IMG/VR virus record: IMGVR_UViG_3300037805_000338 | Coordinates: 1 to 41,474 of that record | From: a virus | Direction: 5' to 3' (one strand) | Length of the DNA stretch: 41,474 nt | Shown here: piece after piece, positions 1 to 41,474 of the stretch | Layout: each line of letters begins with the position of its first letter | Numbering within the stretch: position 1 is the first letter of the stretch | Position numbers and translations under genes: made by a program | The notes under the pieces: model-generated | Database searches by the model: none | Told to the model about the DNA's origin: nothing | The model's input: only the letters and a program-made list of their open reading frames with translations

Positions 1-2
1 TA

Positions 3-1859
3 TTAGTACAGAATAAATTAAAGGGTGAATCCTTAGCGGTTCAAGATGCTCTTTCTCTACAGAACGTAAAGCAACGTGGTCTTGTAGAGTCTATGAATCT
101 ATTGAAGAAGGCCACAGGCGGCAGTATCCCTGAGATGCAACGCTTGCTTGGCTCATCTGAGTCTCTGGCTACTATATTATCACTCACTGGTGCGCAATCA
201 TCGCTTGTAGCCAAGCAGATGGATGCTATGGCCGATGCTCAGGCAAGGGCTGCAACGTTCGCAGATGCTTTGAAGGTAAAGCAGGAGACCACTGAGTTTG
301 CATTGAAGAGATTAAAAACCAGTGTTGATGCCGTAGCGGTTACGTTCGGTGAGGTGTTTGCGCCAACCATTAATGCCGCTGCTAACGCCTTGAGTGCTAT
401 TGCTCAGAGAATGTCCAAGTTAAGTAAGGGGCAGATTGAGTTTATTGCAGGTGTTGCGAAGGTAGCTCTAGTTATTACAGGTCTCACGGCAGCATTGGCC
501 ATTCTAGCTCTTGGTTATTTGAAAGTAAAAGCCATATTGATTGCTACGAACAATGTTTTTAAAATATCAGCCATTGGAATAAAGATTTACAATGGGGCTT
601 TAATATTAGGTCAGCGTGCTGCGAAGATTTTCGCTACAGGAATGAAGCTTGCTACGGGATCTGTTAGAGGTTTAGCAGCGGCTACAGGAATAGGTCTTGT
701 GGTTGTTGCTCTTGGATTATTGATTACGAATTTTAAAGAGGCTAAGGCCGTTGCAGCTGGGACGTTTAAATCCGTTGGTACTGTGATAGATGCTTTTGTA
801 AAGCAGGCTTCAAACTTACTTGGTAGCCTAGCAGATATCCTTGTGGGTGCGCTGACATTGGATTTCGGTAAAGTTAAGTCTGGTCTTGCAGGTATTGGCG
901 ATGGTCTAGGTACGGCTTTTAATGAGATAGGTAAAAAATCCGGGGATGCTTTTAACGAAGGCTATGCTCAGTCTATAGCTGAGAGTGATGCTGCTGAGGC
1001 CTTAGAAGCTGAGGGTGGTGCTGATGATGGTACTGCGGCCTTAAAATCACAGCTTGAAAAAGAACAGGCTGTTAGGGATGAAGCTGCTGAGATAAAAAAG
1101 CAAAAAGAGGCTGAGCTTAATGCCGAGAAGGTTGAGGTAGATGCTGAGAATAATCAGATTAAGACCGAGAATGATGACCTTATAAACCAGCAAGAGTTAG
1201 AAAAACTAGACGCGAAACTTCTTACAGCGGCTCAGATTAAAGAGAAGATGGCTATTGCTGAGCGCAAAAAAGAGATTAACCGTAGAAATAAATTTAAAGA
1301 AGATGAGATCAAGCACGGTACTGAGGTTGCGGAGTTCAAACAGTTCTTAGCATCGGATGAGGTGAAACTTGCCGGTGATACTGCCAACAGCTTGGTTAAA
1401 TTAACCAACTCTAAGAACTCAACTCTCAAGGGCATAGGTAAGGCCGCAGCGTTGGTTAACATAGGTATAAGAACAGCAGAGGGTGCGCTTAGCGCGTATG
1501 CATCGCTTGCACCTATACCATTCGTAGGGCCAGCGCTTGGAGCCACAGCAGCGGGTGCTCTGATCGCATTCGGGGCTGAGCAGGCATCCAACGTATTATC
1601 AGCACAACGTGGCGGGGTAGTTCCAGGAGGTCAGGGTGGTGCTAGAGATAGAATCCCTGCACTGCTTGAGCCTGGTGAGGTTGTAATCCCGAAGGCAGTG
1701 GCGCCTGATTTTCAACAGGCTTTCGGTAGACCTGAAGGTGGAGTTGAGGAGAGTGGTGGAAGCTCCACAGAGGTTACTATTCAGTTTAAAGACGAGGCTT
1801 TCGAGATTATAGAACAGAAATTATCAGAGCGCAGAGCTATAGGCGTAGGGAGTTTTTAA
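3..1859 (+). CDS. Tape measure protein, C-terminal part (5' end outside window)
   Basis: The frame is open from base 3 with no stop upstream, so the gene enters from outside; the first internal ATG at 93 is probably not the start. The visible 618 residues are Ala-rich and helical. They include a hydrophobic stretch (VALVITGLTAALAILALGYL), a charged coiled-coil rich in Glu and Lys, and a Gly-rich C-terminal segment (GGVVPGGQGG then IPALLEPGEVVIP) that is typical of siphophage tape measures. Such proteins set tail length and pass into the cell envelope with the DNA. The next gene starts on its stop codon. A complete, different tape measure lies at 37338-39062, so this one is redundant within the window. 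Confidence 0.85.
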   Translation, partial: LVQNKLKGESLAVQDALSLQNVKQRGLVESMNLLKKATGGSIPEMQRLLGSSESLATILSLTGAQSSLVAKQMDAMADAQARAATFADALKVKQETTEFALKRLKTSVDAVAVTFGEVFAPTINAAANALSAIAQRMSKLSKGQIEFIAGVAKVALVITGLTAALAILALGYLKVKAILIATNNVFKISAIGIKIYNGALILGQRAAKIFATGMKLATGSVRGLAAATGIGLVVVALGLLITNFKEAKAVAAGTFKSVGTVIDAFVKQASNLLGSLADILVGALTLDFGKVKSGLAGIGDGLGTAFNEIGKKSGDAFNEGYAQSIAESDAAEALEAEGGADDGTAALKSQLEKEQAVRDEAAEIKKQKEAELNAEKVEVDAENNQIKTENDDLINQQELEKLDAKLLTAAQIKEKMAIAERKKEINRRNKFKEDEIKHGTEVAEFKQFLASDEVKLAGDTANSLVKLTNSKNSTLKGIGKAAALVNIGIRTAEGALSAYASLAPIPFVGPALGATAAGALIAFGAEQASNVLSAQRGGVVPGGQGGARDRIPALLEPGEVVIPKAVAPDFQQAFGRPEGGVEESGGSSTEVTIQFKDEAFEIIEQKLSERRAIGVGSF

Positions 1860-2680
1860 TGGCTGCACAGATTAAGTTTTTTAATAAAAATAAATTAGAT
1901 ATTGACAACGTAGACGTGAACATAACCGTAACTGATGCTGTTGCTACAGACGATGGCGAGGCTCTATTAGATCTTATGCGAAATAGAAACAACGCCTCCG
2001 CATGGATAACAACCGGCTCTACTGATGCTGCAAACACAACTTTGGTTTTTGACATGGTAGACGAACGTCCTGTAAGCGATATAATCATCGTGAAACATAA
2101 CTTGAAAGCATTCACGGTGAAGTACTGGGACGGGGCAGTTTATCAAGATTTCTCAACAGCCATAAGTGAGACGGTCAATACTGAGGAAACAAGTTACTAT
2201 TCTTTCACAGAGGTTCAAACCTCTAAACTCCAGTTAATTATCACTGGAACTCAAACGGTTGATGATGATAAAACCATTCGTCAATTTATAGCTACCGATA
2301 AACTATTAACGGGTCAGCTAGTGGGTTGGCCTATAATTAAATCACCTCGTCATAACTCCTCTAAGCAGATTAACAAGATGTTGTCGGGGAAGGTTAACGT
2401 TGTTGAATCGGTTGGTGCTTTTTCCTTCAGCTTAACAGTGAGTAACTGGACCAAGGATGCTGATCTAAATATTGTTGAAGAGATTTATTTTGGTCGCAAG
2501 GGCGTGCTGGTTTCATTATCAGGTGGTGACGATGCTCAGTTCACGAACCGGAGAATCGGTTATAGGAAAGAGGATATATACTTGATGCGAACTGTTAATG
2601 ACTACTCGCCAGAATGGAGCAAGGGTATATACACGAACGGTTTAAAGATTAACATGAAACTAGCGGAGTCTATAGACTAA
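1859..2680 (+). CDS. Distal tail / tail-tip protein (alternative module)
   Basis: This 273-residue protein overlaps the tape-measure stop (TAATG). Its middle part (DMVDERPVSDIIIVKHNLKAF, followed by a segment on strand-like spacing) resembles the galactose-binding/discoidin-like beta-sandwich often grafted onto distal tail proteins. The C-terminal part (INKMLSGKVNVVESVGAFSF and onwards) looks like tail-ring material. Position directly after a tape measure and before a hub-like protein is the classic place for a distal tail protein. The family assignment rests on position and fold impression, not on a diagnostic motif. It is the positional counterpart of 39059-39835, to which it has no obvious sequence similarity by eye. 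Confidence 0.55.
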   Translation: MAAQIKFFNKNKLDIDNVDVNITVTDAVATDDGEALLDLMRNRNNASAWITTGSTDAANTTLVFDMVDERPVSDIIIVKHNLKAFTVKYWDGAVYQDFSTAISETVNTEETSYYSFTEVQTSKLQLIITGTQTVDDDKTIRQFIATDKLLTGQLVGWPIIKSPRHNSSKQINKMLSGKVNVVESVGAFSFSLTVSNWTKDADLNIVEEIYFGRKGVLVSLSGGDDAQFTNRRIGYRKEDIYLMRTVNDYSPEWSKGIYTNGLKINMKLAESID

Positions 2681-3912
2681 TGGCTGTAAGATCTAGAATT
2701 AGAGTTTATTTCAAGCCAAGGGATGTTAACGGCGTTTTAACCGACTGGGTTGAGGTGTCTGAAGACATTGATTTTAATTCCCTTGGCAAGGTGTCTTTGC
2801 TTATTGATAACGATGAATATAACGTTGGCCTTTTCAATTATAATGATCTGTCATTAAATTTAAGAAACGATCATGGGAAGTACTCTGATATCACTGAGCT
2901 ATCAAGTATATTTAGATACAAGCGCGGTGGAAGTCCTGTGAAGATTACCTGGCAAGTTCAAGAGGATTTACCCGTCTGTGGGATAGCCATATGCGGAGAA
3001 GCGATCTTAGGGGCTGAGGAGAATATACTTACTGGTGTTTTGAACGATGAGGCTACGAACTTAAACGCTGGGAACCAGCAAGTTAATTTTAAGATTCTTA
3101 CAAAGGAGTCTATATTTAGTTCTCTTGAAACTCCTCACGCATCTATTTCAGCCTTGGATACGTATTCTGACACGATATTTCTAGTATTAAACCAGGCCGG
3201 AGTCACTGAAACCTTAACGGTTGATGCCGGTAATATAACAGTAGGTCTTGATCTAGCTATGGATGTGGTGACAGAGTTTGAAAACACTACGGTGAAAGAG
3301 GCGCTAGATGTTTTATTATTTCAATCAAACTCGGTTTTATTTATCGAAAACGATATAGTTTATGTTGAGTCAAGAGATGGCGGAACGGTTTCGGAGAAAA
3401 CTTTCTACGGCCAAGGATCAAACAATGGTCTCGAGGATATTCTAGATTTATCTGGTATCACCACAGGGCTTAAGAATGTATTTAATTTTTGGACATGGGC
3501 TGACACGGCTCTAGTTAGTACTGATGTTTCAAGCATTACAGCCAACGGTATCCGTAAAAAAGAAATCGAGTTCAAGGAGATCACAGACACGGGTAAAAGA
3601 AACTCCGTTCTAGATGCTCAGAAGACAGAATTTTCATCAAAAAAACAGGAGCTAAATTTAACAACGCCTATGACTTACGAGAACCTAGGCGTTGGGTTAT
3701 TAGATCGCGTTAACGTTGATTATCCTCCGGTTTATTATTTAACGGATCCTGACGGTGAGTTTCCTTTATACGGATCTGCTATTTACGGAACGGCTGTATA
3801 TCCACTTACTGATGTTTCAATAAACATACTTCCAACAACGAACTATAAAGTCATGGGCAAGACCGTGCAATTCAAGAAGCAAACTATAACTTTTAAACTG
3901 AAGGAGCAATAG
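2680..3912 (+). CDS. Tail hub / baseplate hub-like protein (alternative module)
   Basis: 410 residues, starting on the last base of the preceding gene's stop. The N-terminal part has the alternating beta pattern of tail-hub proteins. Residues near 100-115 carry CGIAICGEAILG and residues near 360-375 carry LYGSAIYGTAVYP, short repeating Tyr/Cys-Gly motifs also seen in the hub at 9412 (YGDNINYGENYVYGG). A plausible role is the hub under the tape measure that opens to release DNA. Asparagine is written mostly AAC here and mostly AAT in the 9412 gene, which suggests a different recent origin. Function is inferred from position and those motifs. Confidence 0.5.
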   Translation: MAVRSRIRVYFKPRDVNGVLTDWVEVSEDIDFNSLGKVSLLIDNDEYNVGLFNYNDLSLNLRNDHGKYSDITELSSIFRYKRGGSPVKITWQVQEDLPVCGIAICGEAILGAEENILTGVLNDEATNLNAGNQQVNFKILTKESIFSSLETPHASISALDTYSDTIFLVLNQAGVTETLTVDAGNITVGLDLAMDVVTEFENTTVKEALDVLLFQSNSVLFIENDIVYVESRDGGTVSEKTFYGQGSNNGLEDILDLSGITTGLKNVFNFWTWADTALVSTDVSSITANGIRKKEIEFKEITDTGKRNSVLDAQKTEFSSKKQELNLTTPMTYENLGVGLLDRVNVDYPPVYYLTDPDGEFPLYGSAIYGTAVYPLTDVSINILPTTNYKVMGKTVQFKKQTITFKLKEQ

Positions 3913-3913
3913 A

Positions 3914-4711
3914 ATGGGGACTAATTCCATACCATCGGCAACCACAGGGAACGTAATCCCAGCGTCCGATCATAATTCAATTCAAGAGGCAATGGCAGGA
4001 GACTTAGTTCCAAGAAACGTTAGTGGTGTTGCCACTGCTGATGGCGGAGATGTTGGAACGACGGCGTTACCATTTAAGAGGGCTGCTATTACTGCAGGTT
4101 ATTTCTTCGCAGGTCAGATTATTTCAATGCATACCTATAACGGCTTATTAAGTCCTGGTCATGGTTGGATGAAAATGGACGGTCGTATAATAAATGAAGC
4201 TAACTACAACACCGAGCATGGGGCTGGCTCTTGGGCCACATATGTTATTTCAAGTGCTCTTAATGGGAAGTATTTGCCTGACACTACTAGTAGATTATTC
4301 TTGTCTGGTAGGTCCACAACAACGGAGGACGGCTCTGTAGCTATAGCCACTGAAGGTAACTCGTTTAATCAGATAGACCTTCAGCATAGTCATACGATTT
4401 CAAATCATACGCACACAATCCCTGATCATAATCACCAATGGTATGATAATACTGGTACTGGAGCAACTCCAGATAATACTTACAACTCCGGTGGAGGCTC
4501 TACAAACATAACCTTGAACTCTAAAACTGGCGGGAACCATGTTGTTATGAGTAATTCTGCGGGGAATGCACCAGCTGATTCTTATACCGACACACATGTG
4601 TTCGGAACAACTGGAGCAGGTGGAACTTCTCCAACAGCGAATGCTTTGACAACTAACCAAGACATTCAGCCTTATTCTATCGCAGTAATTTACTACATGA
4701 GGATTATATAA
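3914..4711 (+). CDS. Tail collar-domain fibre protein with HxH metal-site cluster
   Basis: 265 residues. The N-terminal 60 residues are linker-like. Residues ~75-150 (FFAGQIISMHTYNGLLSPGHGWMKMDGR and following) match the phage tail collar domain. Residues ~156-176 hold a run of His-x-His pairs (HSHTISNHTHTIPDHNHQW) like those that bind iron along the axis of trimeric fibre tips such as T4 gp37. The C-terminal IQPYSIAVIYYMRII is the usual ending of collar-domain fibres. It is likely a short trimeric fibre for adsorption. It follows the hub gene by one base and belongs to the 1-6079 module, with no counterpart elsewhere in the window. Confidence 0.8.
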   Translation: MGTNSIPSATTGNVIPASDHNSIQEAMAGDLVPRNVSGVATADGGDVGTTALPFKRAAITAGYFFAGQIISMHTYNGLLSPGHGWMKMDGRIINEANYNTEHGAGSWATYVISSALNGKYLPDTTSRLFLSGRSTTTEDGSVAIATEGNSFNQIDLQHSHTISNHTHTIPDHNHQWYDNTGTGATPDNTYNSGGGSTNITLNSKTGGNHVVMSNSAGNAPADSYTDTHVFGTTGAGGTSPTANALTTNQDIQPYSIAVIYYMRII

Positions 4712-4712
4712 A

Positions 4713-5129
4713 ATGGCATCAATATCTAGTTTAATACCAACGAGGGTAAACGGTCAGACCATTTTCGCGGCCTGGTTTAACACAATAAGGTCAGTTTTAG
4801 AAACACTAAACGGTGCTGAAGCTACAACACTAACGGCTTTCTCAGGCATAGCTTCACAGACTGGTGCTAACGTAACCGATCTTGTTTTCAGCAGTGCATC
4901 AACGAGAAGGGCGGATGTGGAATACGTTATCGTGACGGCAACGAAGGTCGAGTCTGGAAGTTTCGTCTTATTATATGACGGCACGAACTGGACTTTTTAC
5001 GGTGGTTCTGTTCAAGGGGTTGATTCTCTAATCTCATTAGATGTTAATTCTGGCACGGGTCAGGTTGAGTATGATAGCGATGCTGAGACCTTTACATTAA
5101 ATTATAAAACGACTACTTTTAACATATAG
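4713..5129 (+). CDS. Small tail-associated protein, unknown function
   Basis: 138 residues, one base after the collar fibre and eight bases before the signal-peptide fibre. The start (MASISSLIPTRVNGQTIFAAWFNTIR) resembles short N-terminal modules that anchor fibres to the tail. The rest is predicted beta-rich (SSASTRRADVEYVIVTATK; SGSFVLLYDGTNWTFYGG). No catalytic motif is visible. It could be a small tip or fibre-connector protein. I do not recognise a specific family. Confidence 0.55.
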   Translation: MASISSLIPTRVNGQTIFAAWFNTIRSVLETLNGAEATTLTAFSGIASQTGANVTDLVFSSASTRRADVEYVIVTATKVESGSFVLLYDGTNWTFYGGSVQGVDSLISLDVNSGTGQVEYDSDAETFTLNYKTTTFNI

Positions 5130-5137
5130 GATTTGAA

Positions 5138-7330
5138 ATGAAAAAAAGATATTTATTACTTATACCATTCTTGTTTTTACTGACGGCGGCCTCCCCACAA
5201 ATATACAGGTCTCTTCAGATCGGTTTCGGTGTGCAACCTTCAAGCTCGTTGTTTGATGTTTATTCAACCACTCAAGGATCTAGACCATATCCAACTATGA
5301 CGAGTGCTGAGCGGGACGCGGTAGCAACTCCCGCTACTGGTTTAGGTGTTTATAACTCCACCGACGATAAGATTAATTTCTATAACGGCACGGCATGGTT
5401 TGAGCCTGGTTCTGTTCTTGATTATCAGACTTTCGTAGAGCTTGCGGCCACGCCTACCACGCCATCGGCTGGTGAGAAGTTATTATATTCTAAGACCGAC
5501 GGCAAGGTATATACTCTAAACTCAGCAGGTAGTGAAGTTGAGATAGGTGCCGGTGCCGGTGGAGGCGGCGAGGGTGGAGTTAATTATGTGATTAACTCTG
5601 ATGCTGAAACCAACATTGATGATGTGACAGTAACTGCGAATATAACCAAGGCCGCAGAGACTACGGCTCCTTTGTTTGATACTCAGTCTTTTAAATTAAC
5701 AACTGCTACGATTGCAACCACGGCTGATTATTTCGAATTTGACATGAACAATGTGGATCTTGTTTATGTGGAGGGAAGCAGGGAATTACTCGTTGGATTC
5801 TGGTATAAAACAGATGCCAACTACACATCAGATGATTACCAGATTGTTTTAAGAAACGTAGATACGCCTGGCGATATTATAATTACAAATGAAAACAGCG
5901 GTAAGCTTCAAGCCTCCACTACGTCGAAGTATTTTTTAGGCAAGGCTCAGGTCGCTGATCCTGATAATACTTATTCATTAAGAGGCAAGGTGTTGGTCGC
6001 GCCAACCGTTGCGTCATTAATCACAATGGACAAGGTTACGGTCGGTCCAGAGGAGTTCGCTCCCGGTGCTATAATTACCGAGTGGGAAGCTTATACGCCA
6101 ACTACTCAAGGTTTCGGTACAGTTTCTAGTGTAGATTGTTGGTGGAGGCGAGTTGGTAGTAATTACGAACTGTCTATAGACTTTAACACAGGGACTAATA
6201 CAGCAACAGAAGCTCAGGTTGGATTACCTAACGGTAAAGTGGTTAAGAGTGGTATTTCTCCTTCGTCAAAAAGTTTAGGGTCTATGGCGACAAGTTACGG
6301 CGCTGCTATAGACTTAAATGTTTTGGCTACTAGTGGAGACGCGTTCTTAAACATGGGTAGAGAAGATACGGCAACGTCAGGTTTAGTTGCTTTAAATGGT
6401 AACACTTTAGGGAATACAGTAGATGTTTCGTTTACGGTTTCTGTTCCAATTGAAGGACTGGCAGCATCTAATCTAGTTTCAACGACTGAGACTTTGTTTA
6501 GTAGCGCAAAAACTCAGTTAAATATTACTTCAAACCAAACAGTTTCATCTACCAGCCCAACCAAAATAGCCTTTGATAGTGTGATCTTCGATGCTACTGG
6601 AGCTTCAGACATAGGCAATAGTCGTATATTAATTCTTAAATCTGGATACTATTTAATAAATGCACATTGCTACATGAATGGAGTCACAAGTACCGATTTA
6701 ATGACATTGAGTATTTATAAAAATGGAGTTTCTCTTTATAGATCGTTAGATAACGCAGAAAGCGCAACAGTTACTCTGACATCAAGTCGAGTCGTACTAT
6801 TGGCTAAGGGTGATTACATAGAGGCGTTCATAGACTCACAAACGGACGCATCTTACACAGTTGTTGGCGGAACAAACGATAGCTTTTTAGAGGTAACTTA
6901 CCAGCAAGACTTTTCAGTGTTCGGTGTCTTTGGCGAGACTGCTTATGTTGAGGCAAAATCATCTACATCGGCAGGGTGGGCTTTTACATCAAACACTTAC
7001 GGAGTTATCACCAGTATAGTTGTTGACCCTGGTGAGCAAGTGCTTGAGTTTAGTGTTATTGGACAAACCACTGCTGCGAACGGTGTTTATGATATACGTG
7101 CGGCAATAGACACAGTTGGAGGAACCAGTGCTCCAACTTTAAACTATGCAGACAATGCAATGTTTGATGTTTACACTAACGTGTCATTTGAAGTTAAGAC
7201 TTTAACCTTAACTGGCTATAGGGTGAACCCGGCGGTGGCAACGACTTATTATCTTAAAGGTTTTGTCAACGGAAACATCTCTAACCAAAATTTAACTGCT
7301 TATAAATTTTCAGCAAGGAAGTTTAAATAA
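5138..7330 (+). CDS. Fibre / receptor-binding protein with signal peptide and C1q-like tip
   Basis: 730 residues. Residues 1-19 are a textbook signal peptide (MKKRYLLLIPFLFLLTAAS), which is odd for a virion protein. Residues ~30-90 form a small surface-type domain (DVYSTTQGSRPYPTM then YNSTDDKINFYNG). A Gly-rich linker sits at ~138-147, followed by a carbohydrate-binding-like sandwich (NYVINSDAE) to ~310. Residues 315-356 (EWEAYTPTTQGFGTV and onwards) are the segment encoded identically at 41348-41474. Residues ~468-590 (GYYLINAHCYMNGV, SIYKNGVSLYRS, GDYIEAFIDS) look like a C1q/TNF-type jelly roll, a common trimeric binding tip. The promoter-proximal half belongs to the 1-6079 branch and the distal half to the circle, so this exact fusion may be an assembly product. 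Confidence 0.7.
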   Translation: MKKRYLLLIPFLFLLTAASPQIYRSLQIGFGVQPSSSLFDVYSTTQGSRPYPTMTSAERDAVATPATGLGVYNSTDDKINFYNGTAWFEPGSVLDYQTFVELAATPTTPSAGEKLLYSKTDGKVYTLNSAGSEVEIGAGAGGGGEGGVNYVINSDAETNIDDVTVTANITKAAETTAPLFDTQSFKLTTATIATTADYFEFDMNNVDLVYVEGSRELLVGFWYKTDANYTSDDYQIVLRNVDTPGDIIITNENSGKLQASTTSKYFLGKAQVADPDNTYSLRGKVLVAPTVASLITMDKVTVGPEEFAPGAIITEWEAYTPTTQGFGTVSSVDCWWRRVGSNYELSIDFNTGTNTATEAQVGLPNGKVVKSGISPSSKSLGSMATSYGAAIDLNVLATSGDAFLNMGREDTATSGLVALNGNTLGNTVDVSFTVSVPIEGLAASNLVSTTETLFSSAKTQLNITSNQTVSSTSPTKIAFDSVIFDATGASDIGNSRILILKSGYYLINAHCYMNGVTSTDLMTLSIYKNGVSLYRSLDNAESATVTLTSSRVVLLAKGDYIEAFIDSQTDASYTVVGGTNDSFLEVTYQQDFSVFGVFGETAYVEAKSSTSAGWAFTSNTYGVITSIVVDPGEQVLEFSVIGQTTAANGVYDIRAAIDTVGGTSAPTLNYADNAMFDVYTNVSFEVKTLTLTGYRVNPAVATTYYLKGFVNGNISNQNLTAYKFSARKFK
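6080..6206 (+). repeat. 127-bp exact direct repeat, internal copy
   Basis: Identical to 41348-41474 over 127 bases. Both copies lie in fibre genes, start on a first codon position (GAG) and encode the same 42 codons. Immediately upstream the two copies differ at silent or near-silent positions (ATT ACC here, GTT ACT there). The flanks are therefore homologous but diverged, while the repeat itself is perfect. Confidence 0.95.
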
Positions 7331-8154: not shown

Positions 8155-8400
8155 ATGTCAGACATAATAAAAGTAGACGCAAAACAAGTTCTTCTTGATG
8201 AGTTAAAAAAACAAGGGTTAGATATAGCTGAGGACGCTGCAATGTCTACGGTAAAGGCTGTAATTAAAGCACTACCACAATTTTTCTTATCTACAGAGAA
8301 CAAATATGATGATATTCTAATCGGTATCTTGCCAATTATTGAGCCTTCTTTGTTGAAGATTATAGATGACCTTGATGGTGAAGCAGATATTGCTGTTTAA
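8155..8400 (+). CDS. Small protein in lysis region, unknown function
   Basis: 81 residues. I chose the ATG at 8155 because AAAGGATG lies just upstream; an ATG at 8113 would overlap the previous gene by 29 bases. The protein is helical, acidic at the end (LLKIIDDLDGEADIAV) and has no convincing membrane span. Its stop overlaps the next start (TAATG). It shares the lysis-module operon, but nothing in it shows a role. Confidence 0.55.
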   Translation: MSDIIKVDAKQVLLDELKKQGLDIAEDAAMSTVKAVIKALPQFFLSTENKYDDILIGILPIIEPSLLKIIDDLDGEADIAV

Positions 8401-13164: not shown

Positions 13165-13203
13165 ATAGTATTTTTTGCTCGATATTCTCATTATTGTGAG
13201 AAA
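13135..13203. promoter_or_regulatory. Pair of operator-like palindromes
   Basis: ATTCTCACTATTATGTGAAT (13135-13154) and ATTCTCATTATTGTGAGAAA (13184-13203) match at 16 of 20 positions in the same orientation. Each has dyad symmetry (TTCTCA / TGAGAA in the second copy is perfect). Centres are 49 bp apart. The layout resembles two sites for a dimeric regulator that could loop or cooperate. No regulator with a clear helix-turn-helix is seen in the window, so the protein could be of host origin. Confidence 0.55.
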
Positions 13204-13281
13204 ATCCCCTCCCCACTACTCAGATAAAAACGGCATGTTCCTTTTTGAGTTAGCTGCGTGGTTCGGGGTTAAAATTATAAA

Positions 13282-14976: not shown

Positions 14977-15210
14977 TTAAATTTCCGCTATTACTTCGGT
15001 GATATCGTTAACGAGTGGATAAGGCAGTACAACAAAACCAACTTCTTCTCCAGCTTTTACGCCCCAAAAATCAGGTCTTTCCGGTAGCCAAGATATCTTA
15101 CCCATTTCTGTGGGCTGCAATATTTCATCATCAACATTATCAAATAAATGTAATTTTATGCCTAAAGCAATATCGCCAGTGTTTTTATTCATTATTATGT
15201 ACGCTTTCAT
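14977..15210 (-). CDS. Small early protein, unknown function
   Basis: 77 residues with GAGGG just before the ATG. It begins as a beta hairpin (MKAYIIMNKNTGDIALGIKL), has WLPERPDFWGVKAGEEVGFVVL in the middle and an acidic end. It could be a small beta-barrel. No motif is recognised. The plus-strand frames opposite it are shadows. Confidence 0.5.
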   Translation of the reverse strand: MKAYIIMNKNTGDIALGIKLHLFDNVDDEILQPTEMGKISWLPERPDFWGVKAGEEVGFVVLPYPLVNDITEVIAEI

Positions 15211-15230: not shown

Positions 15231-15791
15231 CTAAATATCAACCTCATTTAACCCACGCTTAAGCACTATAACTCTCACACCATCATGTACTTCATCATAT
15301 GTTTTCTTTGGGTGAGTATGACCACAAATAATTACACTTGCCTCAAAATCTTTAGCCTTCTTAATTAAATTATTAATCATCTTTTGCTTAGGCTTATGCT
15401 TACCAAACTTTTCAAATACCTTTAAAGATCTAACCCATAGATTTCTTTTGAACCAACCAGCACCATGCTTTTTTGATCTATAAGCTATAGCTTTCTTATC
15501 GCCCCAAGCTTCAAAATCACCATGCACAGCAATCACAGCAATCACGCTGTTATGAATCATTAAAACTGTGTTGTTTAAATCTATGCGCTCGTGGTTCCCA
15601 TCTACCCAACCTAAAGATCTCGTTGCTAATTCCCAACGAATTTGTTTAGCTTTCTCTAAATGCTTCTTTTTACAATTAGCTAAATCAACTATATCGCCAA
15701 TGAAATAGGACTCACTAACCTTAGTAATCTTGTCCTTTGAAACCATTGGACTGTATAGGTGCATGTCTGTATATATTCTTATCTTGCTCAT
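15231..15791 (-). CDS. Calcineurin-like metallophosphoesterase
   Basis: 186 residues carrying the full motif set of this superfamily: D9-x-H11 (TDMH), GDIVD at 32-36, GNHE at 65-68, H90-GD and GHTH at 157-160. These residues bind two metal ions. The substrate could be a phosphodiester, phosphoprotein or nucleotide; motifs alone do not tell. Early position suggests DNA metabolism or a host-directed task. A second, unrelated-looking member lies at 21161-21871. It overlaps the gene upstream by 71 bases. Confidence 0.88.
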   Translation of the reverse strand: MSKIRIYTDMHLYSPMVSKDKITKVSESYFIGDIVDLANCKKKHLEKAKQIRWELATRSLGWVDGNHERIDLNNTVLMIHNSVIAVIAVHGDFEAWGDKKAIAYRSKKHGAGWFKRNLWVRSLKVFEKFGKHKPKQKMINNLIKKAKDFEASVIICGHTHPKKTYDEVHDGVRVIVLKRGLNEVDI

Positions 15792-22173: not shown

Positions 22174-22397
22174 GTGATATGGAAATTTATGAAAAAGAAG
22201 ATGACGACATTGTTGAATATTATATTAAAACTGCACCTGATGGTTGTTCTATTACTCTTACTATAGTTTGTGGAACGCCTATATCACAAGGACAATACGA
22301 AGCAATGTTGTTATCCTTCGTTGAAGATCTTAGAGCAGGTAGCTCATCAGGACATAGCGAGTGGCTGTTGGATGAATCGGCTGATAATATGCAATAA
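22170..22397 (+). CDS. Small acidic protein, unknown function
   Basis: 75 residues, coupled to the HExxH gene (ATGA). Acidic at both ends (MSDMEIYEKEDDDIVEYY; LLDESADNMQ) with a beta-rich middle (CSITLTIVCGTP). Last gene of the replication operon. It is followed at once by a hairpin that terminates the convergent minus transcript. Function unknown. Confidence 0.5.
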   Translation: MSDMEIYEKEDDDIVEYYIKTAPDGCSITLTIVCGTPISQGQYEAMLLSFVEDLRAGSSSGHSEWLLDESADNMQ

Positions 22398-22415
22398 AAA
22401 AGGGGCCGAAGCCCC
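22396..22415 (-). terminator. Intrinsic terminator of lipoprotein cassette
   Basis: On the minus strand GGGGC (22415-22411) pairs with GCCCC (22406-22402) across a TTCG tetraloop, followed by TTTTTT. It ends the 22434-23143 minus transcript. In the plus direction the stem has no U-tract but may still slow readthrough from the replication operon. Confidence 0.85.
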
Positions 22416-22433
22416 GTAACCAGTGATATGTAA

Positions 22434-22967
22434 CTAACGCCGGTCTAAAATATTCTCTAAATAAGTATAACTCCTCCAGCTGACATATAGTAACTCGCCA
22501 GAGATTCTGTTTATTTCTATATAACAAGATCCATACCAGTCGCCAAAAATATTAGAAGGTGTAACAGTGTGTGAAGCACCATCTTTATCAAAACGCACGT
22601 TCCAATTAGGCTGGCCATTGTAATTAGATGCCTGCCTACCAAAGAAAAAGTCTTGATCTATACCAATGACCCAGTTTTTTAACATTTTACATTCGTAATA
22701 ATGGGGAGCTCTATATAAATTCTCATCCGTTTCATACACAGAGCCTATTTCATAAGGAAAATAATCATAATTTATTTCCTCTTGAGTAGGTATTCTTCTC
22801 CAGCCATCAATAAATAGTCGATCATGCTCACTTATCGTTTCATCTGCTGAATCATCTGTTGGCTCTGTCGAAGGCGTAGACTCAATAAATCCGCCCTCCT
22901 CAGCTTTCTTACAGCTTATCGCTCCGAATAAGAATATTATTAGAAGTAATAGAATTAGTTTTTTCAC
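22434..22967 (-). CDS. Secreted lipoprotein (possible superinfection-exclusion or moron gene)
   Basis: 177 residues from a GTG start with GAGGAGG upstream. A Lys-Lys start and hydrophobic core lead to lipobox GAISC with acylated Cys19. Then comes a Ser/Thr/Asp-rich linker and a compact C-terminal domain with many Tyr/Trp and two Cys that could pair (EC near 93, SC near 147). It would sit in the cell envelope of the host. Opposite orientation to its surroundings and an own terminator are moron traits; lipoproteins of this sort can block reinfection, but that is inference only. Confidence 0.65.
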   Translation of the reverse strand: MKKLILLLLIIFLFGAISCKKAEEGGFIESTPSTEPTDDSADETISEHDRLFIDGWRRIPTQEEINYDYFPYEIGSVYETDENLYRAPHYYECKMLKNWVIGIDQDFFFGRQASNYNGQPNWNVRFDKDGASHTVTPSNIFGDWYGSCYIEINRISGELLYVSWRSYTYLENILDRR

Positions 22968-23143
22968 ACTACCTCCTCTTTGTTAAGGTTTGAAGTTAGT
23001 GTTTTTATTATCTCCTGAACCTCTTCTCTTGCTTTATGTAAATCATCTATTAACACTGTATTTTTTAATACAGGGCTTTTTACTTCTTTTATTATCTGTG
23101 AATATATTTGTGATTCTAATTCTATTAATTTATCTAATTTCAT
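22964..23143 (-). CDS. Small helical protein coupled to lipoprotein gene
   Basis: 59 residues, not found by usual length cut-offs. ATG at 23143 with AAAGGA upstream; stop TGA overlaps the GTG start of the lipoprotein (GTGA). The product is a charged amphipathic helix (MKLDKLIELESQIYSQIIKE, DDLHKAREEVQEIIKTL). It is likely co-translated with the lipoprotein. It could be its regulator or partner. The opposite-strand frame at 22990-23184 is a shadow. Confidence 0.6.
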   Translation of the reverse strand: MKLDKLIELESQIYSQIIKEVKSPVLKNTVLIDDLHKAREEVQEIIKTLTSNLNKEEVV

Positions 23144-23292
23144 ATAAATCCTTTGTTAGTTACATAAGACTTATCGGTAATTAGTCTAGAAACTTTAGAA
23201 CTTTAATCCTTTTGTTTGACAAATTAGTTGCTTTTAGCTGCTTTATCGTCCCATAATTGGACTTTACTAACTCAAGATGAGACAATTTTTAT
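23144..23292. promoter_or_regulatory. Divergent region between lipoprotein cassette and late operon
   Basis: 149 bp that must hold the promoter for the plus late operon. TTGACA at 23217-23222 is a perfect -35, but the best downstream -10 (CTTTAT, 19 bases later) is weak. TTGGAC near 23258 with GACAAT further on is an alternative. No operator-like repeat is seen. Phage late promoters often need an activator, which would fit the weak -10. Confidence 0.35.
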
Positions 23293-23679
23293 ATGGATGA
23301 TAAAAACCCAGTGGGTAGACCTACTAAATATAAAGAAGAATATTGTGAAATGATTGTTGAGCATATGACTAATGGTGATTCCGCTATTTCTTTTGCTAAA
23401 ACTATTGATGTTTGCATGGCTACATTAACTCAATGGCAAAAAGATTTCCCTGAATTTTCAGTAGCATATAAAAAGGGACAGAACTATTGCGAAGACCATT
23501 GGATGAAAGAAGGCCAAAAAGGCATGTGGAACACCCCTGGCCAGAAGACATTAAATACTGGGGTTTGGGCATTCTATATGAAAGCTCGGTTTGGTTGGAA
23601 AGATCGTCAAGAAATATCTATGGGCAATGCTGACGACGACGATGGACTAACTATTAACTTCAGTAAAAAAGAAGGCTAA
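23293..23679 (+). CDS. terS: Terminase small subunit
   Basis: 128 residues. The start GRPTKYKEEYCEMIVEHM and the HTH-like TIDVCMATLTQWQKDFPEF match the common phage small-terminase family. VWAFYMKARFGWKDRQE near the end is its second conserved block, and an acidic tail follows. It recognises the packaging site and hands DNA to the large subunit. The large-subunit gene starts on its stop (TAATG). The ribosome site is poor, so expression may depend on the leader. Confidence 0.88.
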   Translation: MDDKNPVGRPTKYKEEYCEMIVEHMTNGDSAISFAKTIDVCMATLTQWQKDFPEFSVAYKKGQNYCEDHWMKEGQKGMWNTPGQKTLNTGVWAFYMKARFGWKDRQEISMGNADDDDGLTINFSKKEG

Positions 23680-24947
23680 TGGAATTTAATCCATTTGATA
23701 TTCAAGAGGAAATACTTCTAGATGCTATAGCTAAAGAACATCGATATAAGTTCCTTTTTGCAGCTAAGCGTGGTGGTAAATCAGAGACATGTTATGTGGA
23801 AACAGTAATTAAAGGTCAAAAGAAAATAGGCTTTTTAGATGATGGTGACCCTTATCTAATGGCTATTGTCGCCCCCACTCAAGATATGCTCACTCGCTTA
23901 GTATGGCCTAAGTTTAGAATGTTTGCTAAGAAATATGAAAAGAGATTTGTATCTAAGCCTGATATATTTGAATTTAAAAATGGTTCTATCGTCTACGGCA
24001 TTAGTGCAGAGAAGATAAATAGAATGGAGGGTTTGAAGTTATATCATGTGCATTTAACTGAAGCCTTTCAGATGAAGCAGACATCATTACTTGAATCAAT
24101 GGCGAGGACGCTTGACACTAAAGGAACTATTACAGTAGATGGATCTTTAGGGCCACAGTTGATTAACCCTAAGCAACACTGGCTCTATAAGATGGTTAAG
24201 GCTCAAGAGTTTAAAAATTCAAAAGTTTGGGAATGGGCTACTTTAGATAATCCATATATAGATAAAGAAGAAATAGAAACACAAAGAGAAATCTTAGATC
24301 CAGTTACCTTTAGAGCAAACTATGAAATCACATGGGACACGATACCTACTAATGCAGTTTATGATTCATTCTCTGATGATAACGTAATGCAAACATACAC
24401 CTACAACCCATTGCTACCTACATATGTAGCAATCGACTGGGGTTGGAGCCATCCTATGGCCGCTGGGTTTTTTCAAGTAGATAATGCTACGAACACTGTT
24501 TATCTGTTTGATGAGATTGTTAGCTCAAAGTTAAAGATTGAAAGACTCCACAAACAAATTCTAGCTAAACCTTATAAGATAAACGGTTGGTGTTGTGACA
24601 TTGCAGGAAATCAAGAACGTGAGCAAACTGGTATGAGTAATATTAATTGGTTTAAAACTAAAAACATTCATATGAAGCATCGTAGAACAGCTGTCACGTA
24701 TGGCATTCCAATACTTAGGTCATATATTAGAAACGGCAAGGATGAAGTAAAGTTTTATATCTCGGCTAGCTGTGTTAAATCTATAGATGGGATGCGACAA
24801 TATCGTTACAAAGAAAAAGATGGTGTTATATTAAATGAGAACCCTTTAAAAGAAAATGACGATGCTGTTGACATGATTCGTTATTTCTTCTTAAATTACA
24901 TGGATAAGAACCTAACGCCTTCAAATGTTAAAATGTTGGCAAGATAG
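23679..24947 (+). CDS. terL: Terminase large subunit
   Basis: 422 residues. The Walker A-like loop is AAKRGGKS at 28-35. LYHVHLTEAFQM is the Walker B region, with the catalytic Glu in an unusual T-E instead of D-E pair. The nuclease half has AIDWGW, CDIAGNQ and NDDAVDMIRYFF, supplying the acidic residues of the RNase H-like fold. It powers DNA translocation and cuts at the end of a headful or at a cos site; which one cannot be told here. It is translationally coupled to the small subunit. Confidence 0.92.
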   Translation: MEFNPFDIQEEILLDAIAKEHRYKFLFAAKRGGKSETCYVETVIKGQKKIGFLDDGDPYLMAIVAPTQDMLTRLVWPKFRMFAKKYEKRFVSKPDIFEFKNGSIVYGISAEKINRMEGLKLYHVHLTEAFQMKQTSLLESMARTLDTKGTITVDGSLGPQLINPKQHWLYKMVKAQEFKNSKVWEWATLDNPYIDKEEIETQREILDPVTFRANYEITWDTIPTNAVYDSFSDDNVMQTYTYNPLLPTYVAIDWGWSHPMAAGFFQVDNATNTVYLFDEIVSSKLKIERLHKQILAKPYKINGWCCDIAGNQEREQTGMSNINWFKTKNIHMKHRRTAVTYGIPILRSYIRNGKDEVKFYISASCVKSIDGMRQYRYKEKDGVILNENPLKENDDAVDMIRYFFLNYMDKNLTPSNVKMLAR

Positions 24948-28493: not shown

Positions 28494-29327
28494 ATGGCTG
28501 ATGTAGTATCAACCCCCGGATTAGCCGCTGAGTTAATCAGTGCAAAAGTACAAAGAGAATTAGCGTTCGCATCTAAATTAAGAAATTACATTACTGATGT
28601 TTCTTCTTTCGCAGAAAAAGGTAAAGACACGATTTCTTTCCCTAAACTTTCTAGCTTCACTGTCGTTGACAGAGCTGTTGGTGTAGCTGGTGATGCAACT
28701 GCATTAACTGACACTAAGGATAGTTTATTGTTAGATAAGAATGCTTACGTTGCTTGGATCATTGATTCAATGTCTAGCGTTCAGACTTCAATCAATGCTC
28801 AGTTAGAAAATGCTGGACGTGCGTCTGCGGCTCAAGGTCGTTATGTTGACACACAAATCATAGCCCAAGCTGAAACTGATGGTGAAGCTATTACTACTGT
28901 TTCGCCTCTAGTAACTAGAGACGTAATTTTAGAAATGCAAGAGGACCTTCTTTTAAGAGACGCTAATCTTGACAACGTTTCTTTCTGGATTAACCCAACT
29001 CAAAGAACTGCGCTATTAAAAATTGCTGAGTTCACAAGAGCTGATGCTTATGGTTCTTCTAACATCCCTGGTGGTGTTGTAGGTTCTGTATTTGGCGTTC
29101 CAGTAATCATGCATAATGGTTTGGGTGCGGCTCAATACTTTATGGTTGAGAAAGAAGGAATGGCTATTGGTTTTCAAAAAGGTCTTGCAATGGATGAGCA
29201 AGGTGCTAACGAATTTGGTGTTGGTGCTAAGCGAGCTGCTATGGATCAATTATTTGGACTTAAAGGTCTACAAATCGGTCAAAGCGGAGCTACTGCTTCT
29301 GCATTAATCGCTAAAGATAATAACTAA
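28494..29327 (+). CDS. Major capsid protein (HK97 fold)
   Basis: 277 residues, AAGGAG before the ATG. Features fit the P22-type / Ala-rich HK97 coat family: N-arm (AAELISAKVQRELAF), a conserved ITDVSSFAEKGKDTISFP, the INPTQRTALLKI segment and IPGGVVGSVFGVPVIM. No N-terminal delta domain is visible, matching a separate scaffold. It uses a much higher share of Ala and Gly codons than its neighbours, as highly expressed coat genes often do. Confidence 0.88.
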   Translation: MADVVSTPGLAAELISAKVQRELAFASKLRNYITDVSSFAEKGKDTISFPKLSSFTVVDRAVGVAGDATALTDTKDSLLLDKNAYVAWIIDSMSSVQTSINAQLENAGRASAAQGRYVDTQIIAQAETDGEAITTVSPLVTRDVILEMQEDLLLRDANLDNVSFWINPTQRTALLKIAEFTRADAYGSSNIPGGVVGSVFGVPVIMHNGLGAAQYFMVEKEGMAIGFQKGLAMDEQGANEFGVGAKRAAMDQLFGLKGLQIGQSGATASALIAKDNN

Positions 29328-29549: not shown

Positions 29550-29845
29550 TGGCTATACCTTCTGAGAGATTGCATAGAGATCAGTTAGCTTATAAGGAAA
29601 ATTCAACAGAAATTGGTGCTGTAGATAGGCGAGTAAATGATTCTGATGCAAATGCAAAGTTAACAGGTGTTGGCGGACTACTGCATGGTATTACATACGA
29701 TGCTGTAGGCGTTACTTATCCTACTGCCACTACAGAGATATACTCTTTTTACACTGGTGGTTTAGTCGGGGCATTGGTTGCAACTATTACTTTAGTTTAC
29801 TCTAACTCTACTAAGGCAGATTTAGTTAGTGCGGTTAAAGTATAA
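29549..29845 (+). CDS. Small head-associated protein, unknown
   Basis: 98 residues with GGGGG upstream. The N-terminal 45 residues are polar (YKENSTEIGAVDRRVNDSD). The rest is beta-rich (GGLLHGITYDAVGVTYPTATTEIYSFYTGG) and looks like a small virion protein. Start and stop overlap both neighbours by one base. Likely a decoration or fibre-base protein. Confidence 0.5.
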   Translation: MAIPSERLHRDQLAYKENSTEIGAVDRRVNDSDANAKLTGVGGLLHGITYDAVGVTYPTATTEIYSFYTGGLVGALVATITLVYSNSTKADLVSAVKV

Positions 29846-30222
29846 TGGGATGGCGATTTAATCCGTTCACAGCAAATTTTGATTTTGTTGACACAACAAC
29901 AGCACAAGCGAATGTATGGGAAAGGTTTAGTGGGACTGTTACAGCTAGTACTAGTAGTAACGTGGATACTATAGCTTTAACTAATTTTAATAGTGTGAAA
30001 TATATTATTAGTTTGTACAACTCAACTAATAATGAGGTTAAACAATTAGAAATCGGAGTAGCTAATCATACGACAAGCGTAAAAGATACGCTGTATGGTA
30101 AGGTAAAGGGAAGTTTAGATATAGATATTAATTCAAACTTAGTTGGTTCTAACTTTGAACTAGAATTTATAAATAATGAAACTTTTGATATAGATTATAC
30201 AATAGCTAAAGTAGAATTTTAG
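29845..30222 (+). CDS. Virion protein with GWRFNPFT start, unknown role
   Basis: 125 residues. The start MGWRFNPFTANFDFV is a short motif I recall from phage structural genes that follow a coat gene. The rest is a beta domain (NVDTIALTNFNSVKYIIS, IDIDYTIAKVEF pattern) like a small sandwich. A capsid decoration or head fibre component is the best guess. Confidence 0.5.
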   Translation: MGWRFNPFTANFDFVDTTTAQANVWERFSGTVTASTSSNVDTIALTNFNSVKYIISLYNSTNNEVKQLEIGVANHTTSVKDTLYGKVKGSLDIDINSNLVGSNFELEFINNETFDIDYTIAKVEF

Positions 30223-37046: not shown

Positions 37047-37345
37047 TTGAGTTTGACTATCAAAAAGCTAGGCTTGCTTATTATTACAAGTGGAGTGATG
37101 AGTACATAAGTGGATTAACTGTAGATCAATTTAATAGTTATTATATAGCATCGGGAGTAATAGAGAAAGAAAACATACTAGGACAAATGTCGGCTTCACT
37201 ACTTCCGAATATGAAAAAGGAAAAAATAAAAAGTCAAGTTAAGGATTTGCAGAGTAAGATTAAGTCAAGTTTTGTAAATACAGTAAGTAAAGCAAACGCA
37301 GAATATTTAGCACAGCAGTTACTCAAGGATGAATTAGATGGCTGA
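36789..37345 (+). CDS. Tail assembly chaperone, -1 frameshift (G-T-like) product
   Basis: At the nine-A run (37035-37043) a -1 slip continues into the next frame: codons IVEFDYQKARLAYYYKWSDE and on to VSKANAEYLAQQLLKDELDG, stop TGA at 37343-37345. The fusion is 185 residues. This frame has no good start codon of its own, fills the gap to the tape measure gene and overlaps its ATG. This is the conserved G/GT arrangement of long-tailed phages, in which the T-part binds the tube subunit. Frameshift is inferred from layout and slippery sequence. Confidence 0.78.
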
Positions 37346-39062
37346 TGATAGTATAGAGATTGAGATAGTCTTAGATGATGGAAAAATCATTAAAGGCTTT
37401 CAAAAAATTGAAAAGAAGTCTAAGAAAACTGGTAGTAATATTGGCAGTAACCTTAATAAAGGTTTGGTTGCCTTAAGCGGCACTGTGCTAGCGGTGGGGG
37501 CAGCGTTTGCATCAGCATTTGCAGGTCGTAAAGTTATTGAAGCAGCACAACAGCAAGAAGTTGCTATTAATAAGCTAAATATAGCCCTTTCTCAGTCTGG
37601 CAAATTAGCTAAAGGCGTGTCAGAGGATTTTCAAGCATTCGCAAGTGAGTTGCAAAAAGTAACCACAATAGGTGACGAAACTACTTTAGAGACAGCGGCC
37701 TTAATTCAATCTTTAGGACAATTAGAGGTTAGCGGTTTAAAAAGAGCTACTATTGCAGCGGCAGATTTAAGTGCTGCTTTAGGTATTGATTTAAAGGCTG
37801 CGGCATTACTTGTGGGTAAAGCAGCGGCTGGTGAGGTGAGCTCATTTAGTCGATATGGTTTAGTAATTAAAAAAGGTGCAACAGAGGCAGAGACTTTTGA
37901 AAGAGCGTTAACCGCTCTTGAGGGTAAGTTTGGAGGCTCGGCACAAGCTCAGGTGAATACATTTTCAGGTAGACTGCAACAAATGTCTAATGCGTTTGGA
38001 GATTTGTTAGAGGAGATCGGTTTTGTTATAACTAGATCACCGGCGTTAGTGTCTGTGTTTAAAGTAATATCAGATGCTATATTGGGAGCTTCGGATCAAG
38101 TTAAAGGCTTTAGGGAAGACAATAAAGATCCTTTCAGTGGGTTAATAACAGGGGCTATTACTTTCGGTGCTGTGATCGCAACATCTGTAGTTGCTCCGAT
38201 TGAGGTTATGTCTAATGTTATTCAATTAGCTTTCAATGGTATTAACTTAATTATCCAAGGAACGATCTCAAGTCTAGCAGATGCTGCGTCTAAGATAGTT
38301 AGTTTTTTTGCACCAGAAAGTGATCTCGCAAAAAACTTAAATACATTTAAGGAGTCATCGTCTGCAGTTTTTGATGAGTTTGCAAACGATGCTGGGACTA
38401 GTTTAGATAATGTTTTTAAAGCAGATATGACAGAGGATATAACTACTTTTTTAGCTCAGTTACAGGGTGCGGTTGATCAAGCTAAGCCAATTACGGATCA
38501 GTTTGCTACTAACACAGAGGCTTCGGTTGAGGCCATGGGTAAGGTTTTTATATCAGTGAAGCAAAAAACAGGCTTATTGCAAAAAAGTTTAGTGTCTGGT
38601 TTTACAGCTTTAGGTGGTGCTTTAGCTCAAGGTAAGAATGGTTTTGAAGCATTCGGGAAAGCAGTGCTAGGGATTATAGGTGATTTAGCTATTAACATTG
38701 GTTCTACTTTAATCGGCATAGGATTAGGTGTTGAAAAATTAAAGGCATCATTGACAACCTTAACTGGTGGGTTTGCTATAGCCGCAGGTCTTGCTCTGGT
38801 TGCATTAGGTGGTGCCCTGAAATCATTAGGCGGTGGTGCCGGGTTAGGCTCTGCAGGTGCTAGCACTTCTGGTGACAGCGTTGCATCAGGAGGAGAAGAA
38901 ATCTTAGGTGATGTAGACGTGGATAATGATTTAGAATCACCAGGACAGAACCTTGTGGTTAACGTAGAGGGCACTGTATTAGATCCGGCTGGAGTAGGAC
39001 AACAGATTGTTGATGTATTAAATGAGGCTGGTTTTACAAACGGATCAAGGGTTATAGCATGA
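37338..39062 (+). CDS. Tape measure protein (complete)
   Basis: 574 residues. The start (MADDSIEIEIVLDDGKIIKGFQKIEKKSK) is the usual tape-measure opening, with a helix and coiled coil. A membrane-type segment follows (LVALSGTVLAVGAAFASAFAG). A central hydrophobic block at ~260-320 (ITFGAVIATSVVAPIEVMSN) and a Gly-rich C-terminal part (LGGALKSLGGGAGLGSAGAS) complete it. Its ATG lies inside the frameshifted chaperone. This is the only complete tape measure in the window and belongs to the circle. It looks different from the one at 3-1859. Confidence 0.88.
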   Translation: MADDSIEIEIVLDDGKIIKGFQKIEKKSKKTGSNIGSNLNKGLVALSGTVLAVGAAFASAFAGRKVIEAAQQQEVAINKLNIALSQSGKLAKGVSEDFQAFASELQKVTTIGDETTLETAALIQSLGQLEVSGLKRATIAAADLSAALGIDLKAAALLVGKAAAGEVSSFSRYGLVIKKGATEAETFERALTALEGKFGGSAQAQVNTFSGRLQQMSNAFGDLLEEIGFVITRSPALVSVFKVISDAILGASDQVKGFREDNKDPFSGLITGAITFGAVIATSVVAPIEVMSNVIQLAFNGINLIIQGTISSLADAASKIVSFFAPESDLAKNLNTFKESSSAVFDEFANDAGTSLDNVFKADMTEDITTFLAQLQGAVDQAKPITDQFATNTEASVEAMGKVFISVKQKTGLLQKSLVSGFTALGGALAQGKNGFEAFGKAVLGIIGDLAINIGSTLIGIGLGVEKLKASLTTLTGGFAIAAGLALVALGGALKSLGGGAGLGSAGASTSGDSVASGGEEILGDVDVDNDLESPGQNLVVNVEGTVLDPAGVGQQIVDVLNEAGFTNGSRVIA

Positions 39063-39838: not shown

Positions 39839-41474
39839 ATGGCTATTAGTGATGGACAAAAAGTTAATGCGTTAAATTCAAATGCTGCATGGGTCTCTAG
39901 AACAAGTGATTCAAATACTGTTGGTAAGTTAGATTTAGAAAACACTGATGTTGCATCTGGTGATAGTGTTATCAATGCACAGAAAGAGCATAATTCTAGT
40001 GCAAGCTATACTGGTAAAACAGTAGGCACTACTAAAGATGATGTACCGACTTATTCAAGCGATGCAGTGGGTATTGCTAATGAGGATCTCACAGCAAGAG
40101 CAGGTGCTTTAACTGCACAAGTAGGAACTAACGTAACTGGTATTGCAACAAATGTGGCGGATATCGCTGCAAATGCGTCAGATGTGGCGGATATAAGAAC
40201 CACTACAGGAACTGTCGATGGTGATACTGATATGGGTGCAATGACCGGTACAGTTTTGACATCTAATACTACGGCTAAGGCTAACATTCAGGAGCTTGGA
40301 ACGCAGGTTGATACTAATACATCTGACATTGCTACTATTACATCTAGCCCTGTCTTTACATTCCAAGGTAACTACGATGTGGTGACTAATACGCCGACAT
40401 TAGTTGATGGCACTGGTACAATCGGTCATTCGTATAAGTTAACAACAGCTGGCACAAGAGATTTTGGTGCAGGAAATATTAGTTTTATAATTGGAGATTT
40501 AATTTATTATTCTGGCACTGTCTGGGATAAAGATAAGGAACCGGTGGCATCTGTCGCAGGTAAACAAGGTGTAGTTACATTGGTGGCGGCAGATGTCACT
40601 GATTTTGATACTGAGGTTACTAATAATACAACCGTTGTTGCTAACACTTCTAAGGTTTCAGCTAGTGGCTCCATTGATGAACATTCGGATGTAGATATCA
40701 CTACAATTGCTCCTACTTTGGGCCAGGCACCTATATGGGACGGGACTAAGTTTGTTCCTGGTGATGCTGGTGGTGGATCAGGGCAAGGCGGTATTAATTA
40801 TATTACTAACCCTGATTTTGAAACAGACTTAACGGGATGGTCTTTATATAAAGATGCTGCAGCTTCAACTCCGGTTGATGGCACTGGCGGAACGGCTTTA
40901 GAGATTACTTCAACCGCATCTGTTGTAGTTGCAGATGTTCTACGTGGAACACAGAGTTTAAAATTAAATTCTTCAGGTTCAGCTTCAGCTCAAGGTGAAG
41001 GTATTTCATACGACTTTGCTATTGACAATATAGATCAAGGCGGGAAGTTAAATTTAAGTTTTGAATACGAAACTCCAAACGCTAGCTACAACACTGGTGA
41101 CTTTCAAGTATTTATTTATGACATTGATAACGCCACATTGTTGGGCCGTGTAAGAAGTGATGAGAATGGCGGCATTATTAATAACATCGGATCACCTGGA
41201 ACATTTAGAGGTGATTTTGAAACCACTAATAGTGCTAACTATAGATTAATCATACATTGTACGGTTCCATTTTTATATCCACAGGAATTAAGAGCAGATA
41301 ATTTTAAAATAGGTCCTGAGCAATTTGGTCCTGGAGCTATAGTTACTGAGTGGGAAGCTTATACGCCAACTACTCAAGGTTTCGGTACAGTTTCTAGTGT
41401 AGATTGTTGGTGGAGGCGAGTTGGTAGTAATTACGAACTGTCTATAGACTTTAACACAGGGACTAATACAGCAA
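39839..41474 (+). CDS. Tail fibre, 5' part (runs off the window)
   Basis: 545 codons with no stop before the window ends. No signal peptide. The start (MAISDGQKVNALNSNAAWVS) is a tail-attachment module; a coiled coil of NxSD repeats follows, then VASVAGKQGVVTLVAADVTD, a motif of many fibre proteins. A Gly-rich linker at ~308-319 leads to a carbohydrate-binding-like domain (NYITNPDFETDLTGWSLY), parallel to that in the 5138 gene. The last 42 codons are the 127-bp repeat. Joined in frame to 6207 it gives a 919-residue fibre with a C1q-like tip. Confidence 0.8.
   Translation, partial: MAISDGQKVNALNSNAAWVSRTSDSNTVGKLDLENTDVASGDSVINAQKEHNSSASYTGKTVGTTKDDVPTYSSDAVGIANEDLTARAGALTAQVGTNVTGIATNVADIAANASDVADIRTTTGTVDGDTDMGAMTGTVLTSNTTAKANIQELGTQVDTNTSDIATITSSPVFTFQGNYDVVTNTPTLVDGTGTIGHSYKLTTAGTRDFGAGNISFIIGDLIYYSGTVWDKDKEPVASVAGKQGVVTLVAADVTDFDTEVTNNTTVVANTSKVSASGSIDEHSDVDITTIAPTLGQAPIWDGTKFVPGDAGGGSGQGGINYITNPDFETDLTGWSLYKDAAASTPVDGTGGTALEITSTASVVVADVLRGTQSLKLNSSGSASAQGEGISYDFAIDNIDQGGKLNLSFEYETPNASYNTGDFQVFIYDIDNATLLGRVRSDENGGIINNIGSPGTFRGDFETTNSANYRLIIHCTVPFLYPQELRADNFKIGPEQFGPGAIVTEWEAYTPTTQGFGTVSSVDCWWRRVGSNYELSIDFNTGTNTA
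41348..41474 (+). repeat. 127-bp exact direct repeat, terminal copy
   Basis: Identical to 6080-6206 and ends exactly at the window end. The next base is unknown, so the true identity may extend further. A repeat of exactly 127 bases at a contig end is a common sign of a de Bruijn assembly that used k = 127 and stopped at a branch. Confidence 0.95.

Follow-up and report, generated by a model that had tools for sequence, protein, structure and literature searches.

A 127-bp terminal repeat in a viral record is very probably an assembly overlap that joins two phages sharing a tail-fiber segment

The viral record IMGVR_UViG_3300037805_000338 ends by repeating, exactly, 127 bases from a site some way inside itself. 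The question is whether this repeat is a feature of a phage genome or a product of assembly, and which parts of the record (41,474 bp, analyzed whole and called the window here) belong to one virus. A sequence-only reading had proposed that the last 127 bases equal 6080 to 6206, that joining the copies closes a 35,268-bp circle (6080 to 41347), and that the remaining 6,079 bases are a branch. Self-comparison of the window confirmed the identity letter for letter (127/127), and the 41,474 bases contained no further repeat of at least 20 bp in either direct or inverted orientation. An exact match of this length is far beyond chance. The flanks to the left of the two copies differ at once, with C at 6079 versus T at 41347. 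Similarity nevertheless continues upstream at lower identity (94.5% at the nucleotide level over 6044 to 6206), which places the repeat within two genes that, judged from their sequences, are related tail-fiber genes. Their products are 44% identical over 188 residues ending in, and including, the repeat. Because one copy is internal, the record does not carry the same sequence at both ends, as a direct terminal repeat would require. Feature coordinates are collected in Table 1.

A scan of IMG/VR with the 730-aa open reading frame (ORF) across the internal copy matched both ends of contig 3300037842_000770 (38,197 bp). The final 6,205 bases of this contig are 100% identical to window 1 to 6205, and its initial 126 bases equal window 6336 to 6461, with the first mismatch at contig base 127 (window 6462). 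Elsewhere, the contig resembled the window only in short patches. Here, "phage B" denotes this contig and "phage A" denotes the circle from 6080 to 41347. Because the contig runs on unbroken upstream of window base 1, the window starts inside a B gene, apparently midway in the predicted tape measure gene.

The arm (1 to 6079) encodes the 3′ part of this tape measure gene, tail proteins of 273, 410, 265, and 138 aa, and the 5′ part of the B fiber gene. Its tape measure protein belongs to phrog_28/991, unrelated to the phrog_27166 protein of A. At 42.9% GC, the arm lies above both circle A (36.5%) and the remainder of B (39.1%); its assignment to B therefore comes from sequence identity and not from GC content. 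Tetranucleotide composition showed a mild preference for B (correlation of 0.56, versus 0.46 with A). The arm is best described as a predicted tail module of phage B, and its earlier description as a branch held, with the branch now matched exactly to the 3′ end of another near-complete phage contig.

Table 1. Features of the 41,474-bp window (columns: feature, position, strand, basis)
Foreign arm, predicted B tail module	1..6079	+	identity to 3′ end of 3300037842_000770 (with 6080-6205)
Apparent 730-aa fiber ORF	5138..7330	+	probable artifactual hybrid of B N-terminal and A C-terminal parts
First overlap copy	6080..6206	+	exact repeat; branching vertex of the k=127 model falls exactly here; B arm and A end meet
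A/B common segment in tail-fiber gene	6080..6461	+	382 bp; 126 + 126 bases seen at B contig ends
Phage A genome	6080..41347	+	35,268 bp closed; self-loop unitig in k=127 model; one module set
A terminase large subunit	23679..24947	+	phrog_5653, E 3.8e-23
A major capsid protein	28494..29327	+	phrog_267, E 3.8e-19
A tape measure protein	37338..39062	+	phrog_27166, E 1.1e-9
Phage A fiber, 5′ part	39839..41474	+	continues at 6207-7330; open across join
Second overlap copy	41348..41474	+	exact repeat of 6080-6206; assembler end overlap

Beyond these tail genes, the contig carries a core different from that of A. B encodes terminase small and large subunits (phrog_51 and phrog_2), a portal (phrog_113), a protease (phrog_328), a capsid protein (phrog_371), a tape measure protein (phrog_991/28), a primase (phrog_2249), a helicase (phrog_62), and a protein of the tail-lysozyme type. 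In addition to the proteins in Table 1, A encodes a weakly matched portal (phrog_533), a D5-type primase (phrog_864), a Sak4-like annealing protein (phrog_124), and an M15 endolysin, and its terminase large subunit had no match in the B contig. The claim that the circle holds one copy per expected module was borne out for terminase, portal, capsid, tape measure, primase, and lysin. Each part of the window is thus linked to its own TerL, portal, capsid, and primase families, and A and B appear from their gene content to be two separate phages, each with a full set of tailed-phage modules in unrelated protein families. This goes further than the sequence-only reading, since the branch would come from a second phage whose capsid, packaging, and replication genes differ from those of A. 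The possibility that the arm came from a strain variant of the same phage was rejected because the B core genes fall into other PHROG families.

Relatives of the A terminase were only 22 to 26% identical among the matches listed, and those in IMG/VR were mostly short fragments, none of which was seen to cross the fork. A 747-aa tail protein had no relatives in cultured phages or in a further search, and a scan of genome contigs with the primase found none, so that these searches pointed to no host. No tRNA genes and no Rfam matches were found.

A comparison of circle A with closed circle B found a single common stretch longer than 126 bases, the 382-bp segment at 6080 to 6461. The B contig ends at the equivalent of window 6205 and begins at that of 6336, so the directly observed identity covers 252 bases, and the middle 130 (6206 to 6335) are inferred for B and taken from the window. 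Downstream of this segment, the A and B fibers are about 58% identical in amino acids. Joined across the repeat (39839 to 41474 plus 6207 to 7330), the A fiber gene encodes 919 aa with a single terminal stop at 7330, in agreement with the earlier claim that the two copies share a codon phase. The B fiber joined to its own 3′ part is also open and encodes 733 aa. By comparison, the 730-aa ORF of the window is probably an artifactual B/A hybrid, the protein of neither phage. The 3′ part of the B fiber had a weak C1q-like match slightly under the Pfam cutoff, and no matches were found for the fiber in the PDB, for the fiber protein among cultured phages, or for window 1 to 8000 in a DNA search of cultured phages. 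The fiber gene, a gene for a 181-aa protein, and the lysis genes form a homologous block in the same order in A and B despite their unrelated cores.

Two further contigs indicate which upstream half belongs with which downstream half. Contig 3300028045_000130 combines on one molecule, in this order, structural genes and an N-terminal fiber part that are B-like, followed by a C-terminal fiber part and lysis genes with 87 to 93% amino acid identity to B versus 33 to 57% to A. In contig 3300038701_002687, the B tail genes (tape measure, 273, 410, 265, and 138) occur in B order and are followed by a more distant fiber. These layouts pair the arm with the downstream half of B, and by exclusion the end of A joins window 6462 onward. 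Contig searches found no other contigs with the exact A sequence around the fork, and a relative showing closure of A directly was looked for and not found. Closure of A is probable on the combined grounds of the graph, the open reading frame, and this exclusion, and we infer a circular or circularly permuted form for A in nature.

Modeling of de Bruijn graphs reproduced both deposited sequences. For this purpose, circle A was 35,268 bp (41347 minus 6079, as the sequence-only reading had calculated), and circle B was the contig plus window bases 6206 to 6335, or 38,327 bp. With both circles at k=127 and k-mers as nodes, one unitig was identical to the deposited B contig at every base; because window bases were used to close B here, the independent fact is that both contig ends overlap the common segment by the same 126 bases. 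This overlap is the signature of a graph edge. When circle A was instead combined with a B fragment that enters but does not leave the common segment, the k=127 edge convention gave exactly two unitigs, window 1 to 6206 and a self-loop from 6080 to 41474. Overlapped by 127 bases, these give the exact 41,474-base record. Contig ends at repeats and shared regions are known to overlap by maxK in metaSPAdes and MEGAHIT and by maxK-1 in IDBA_UD, in work whose simulations took in regions common to different genomes (PMC10914622). The overlaps found here, 127 in the window and 126 at both B ends, would fit this rule with 127, a standard k, as maxK. The difference suggests that the window record and the B contig came from different assemblers. 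The two bases preceding the shared 127-mer (C at 6079 and T at 41347) stand at the ends of upstream sequences from two phages.

On these results, the record very probably follows a k=127 graph along a mixed path, with an arm of B placed before circular phage A. A, with a 35,268-bp circular map, and B, with a circular map of about 38.3 kb, would share an identical 382-bp fiber segment, which is longer than the 127-bp overlap, and this sharing gives rise to the fork at 6080. In the sample that gave the window, B sequence would have been retained from about 6 kb upstream into the common segment and its exit lost, a pattern consistent with low B coverage. The 127-mer at 6080 to 6206 would then be a vertex entered by both the B arm and the end of A and left only by A. 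An assembler following this graph would write the B arm, then all of A, and halt on reaching the same 127-mer again, leaving the apparent terminal repeat. The earlier proposal of a graph fork with two predecessors is strengthened by the model and by a contig that ends at the same fork, and the self-loop unitig favors the proposal that the real genome is the circle. The evidence supports the terminal repeat being an assembly-graph overlap, not a biological feature.

Because a single 73.6-kb circle yields a graph identical to that of two separate circles, the graph alone cannot tell these pairings apart; gene content and synteny can. Such a molecule, a cointegrate or tandem prophages with both gene sets in series and two 382-bp copies, would have the window and 3300037842_000770 as its halves, and the window path does run from the B arm into A. 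However, it would have to carry every core module (terminase, portal, capsid, tape measure, primase, and lysin) twice, as complete sets unrelated to each other and each as large as a normal phage genome, and a scan of genes identified neither an integrase nor a host flank. The start of the window in the middle of the B tape measure gene and the independent contig linking a B-like fiber to B-like lysis genes also argue against it, making it extremely unlikely. A true 127-bp direct repeat, terminal or internal, of a single linear phage genome would explain the exact match, but only one copy is terminal, the length equals a standard assembler k, and closing the circle restores a full fiber gene. 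The outer 6,079 bases belong to another phage, as contig 3300037842_000770 shows, and this explanation is almost certainly wrong.

Recombinant phages in which the B tail module and upstream fiber are joined to the A fiber end could form a subpopulation in which the hybrid junction is real. Homologous exchange could naturally occur in the common segment, the 730-aa hybrid ORF has no internal stop, and recent domain shuffling in tail fibers has been documented (PMC10684548). Nevertheless, no further contig with the hybrid, or with the downstream sequence of A, was found, and a recombinant is not needed because the graph model accounts for the record to the base. A real hybrid junction is very unlikely, and it is similarly improbable that A and B are actively swapping fiber modules through the 382-bp segment in real virions, with one recombinant caught in the window. 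Under the favored mixed-path explanation, the biology that is left would be ordinary tail-fiber mosaicism of a documented kind, seen as near-identical sequence at 6080 to 6461 (the middle 130 bp inferred for B) with divergent flanks in otherwise unrelated phages.

Short elements elsewhere in A also resemble B. A 68-bp element at 13202 to 13269 (contig 8223 to 8290) is 92.6% identical, lies mostly or wholly outside the listed ORFs, and had no Rfam match; it is possibly a common regulatory element or terminator. At 22393 to 22444 (contig 14984 to 15034), 52 bp that are 94% identical contain a GGGGC/GCCCC hairpin beside an A-run, resembling a common transcription terminator. Near the terminase genes, a 270-bp region at 22927 to 23198 (contig 15311 to 15583) is 84% identical with a 48-bp exact core at 23120 to 23167, though the terminases themselves are unrelated, and could be a small gene with its leader or a regulatory or packaging region. 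The sequence TTAACAAA precedes several minus-strand genes (14430, 14607, 14968, 15227, and 22986), often followed by a Shine-Dalgarno-like GGA/GAGG, and the same arrangement occurs in phage B at 10157 and 9203. It is possibly a recurring gene-junction motif, in a small number of instances. At 29845 to 29900 (contig 22808 to 22863), the first 19 residues of position-matched A and B genes share 84% identity (MGWRFNPFTANFDFVDT...) and are the only part of the proteins with reported similarity, and contig 3300024299_000011 also contains a match to the first 25 residues. This may be a common N-terminal tag on otherwise different structural proteins.

As deposited, the record gives a false picture of one phage genome, with 6.2 kb of excess length, tail genes from a second phage, and a hybrid fiber ORF. 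Uncorrected, it would mislead analyses of host range, synteny, completeness, and clustering. Splitting the record at 6080, closing A, and trimming the copy at 41348 to 41474 leaves a probably complete 35,268-bp genome. The repeat is an artifact of assembly at which two phages were joined; recognizing it helps to correct the record, and its novelty is low. It can also serve more widely as a clean test case, in which a k-length repeat shared by the end of a contig and a site within that contig signals a foreign arm that a check limited to repeats at both ends would miss.

The closest known parallel is the maxK end-overlap breakpoint described with COBRA (PMC10914622), where a contig end of 127 bases likewise recurs at a fork that arises from sequence common to more than one genome. 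Unlike those breakpoints, the overlap here leads back into the record itself, at an internal position, because the foreign arm had been placed ahead of the circle. As in other chimeric viral contigs, a segment longer than k that is common to two genomes brings them together in one mixed path. In this case the partner genome has its own deposited record (3300037842_000770), which allows the chimera to be checked base by base. The fiber genes resemble recent tail-fiber domain mosaicism (PMC10684548) in combining unrelated cores with a near-identical fiber segment and divergent flanks, and differ in that the segment is only about 380 to 460 bp, lies in the middle of the fiber gene, and comes from uncultured phages.
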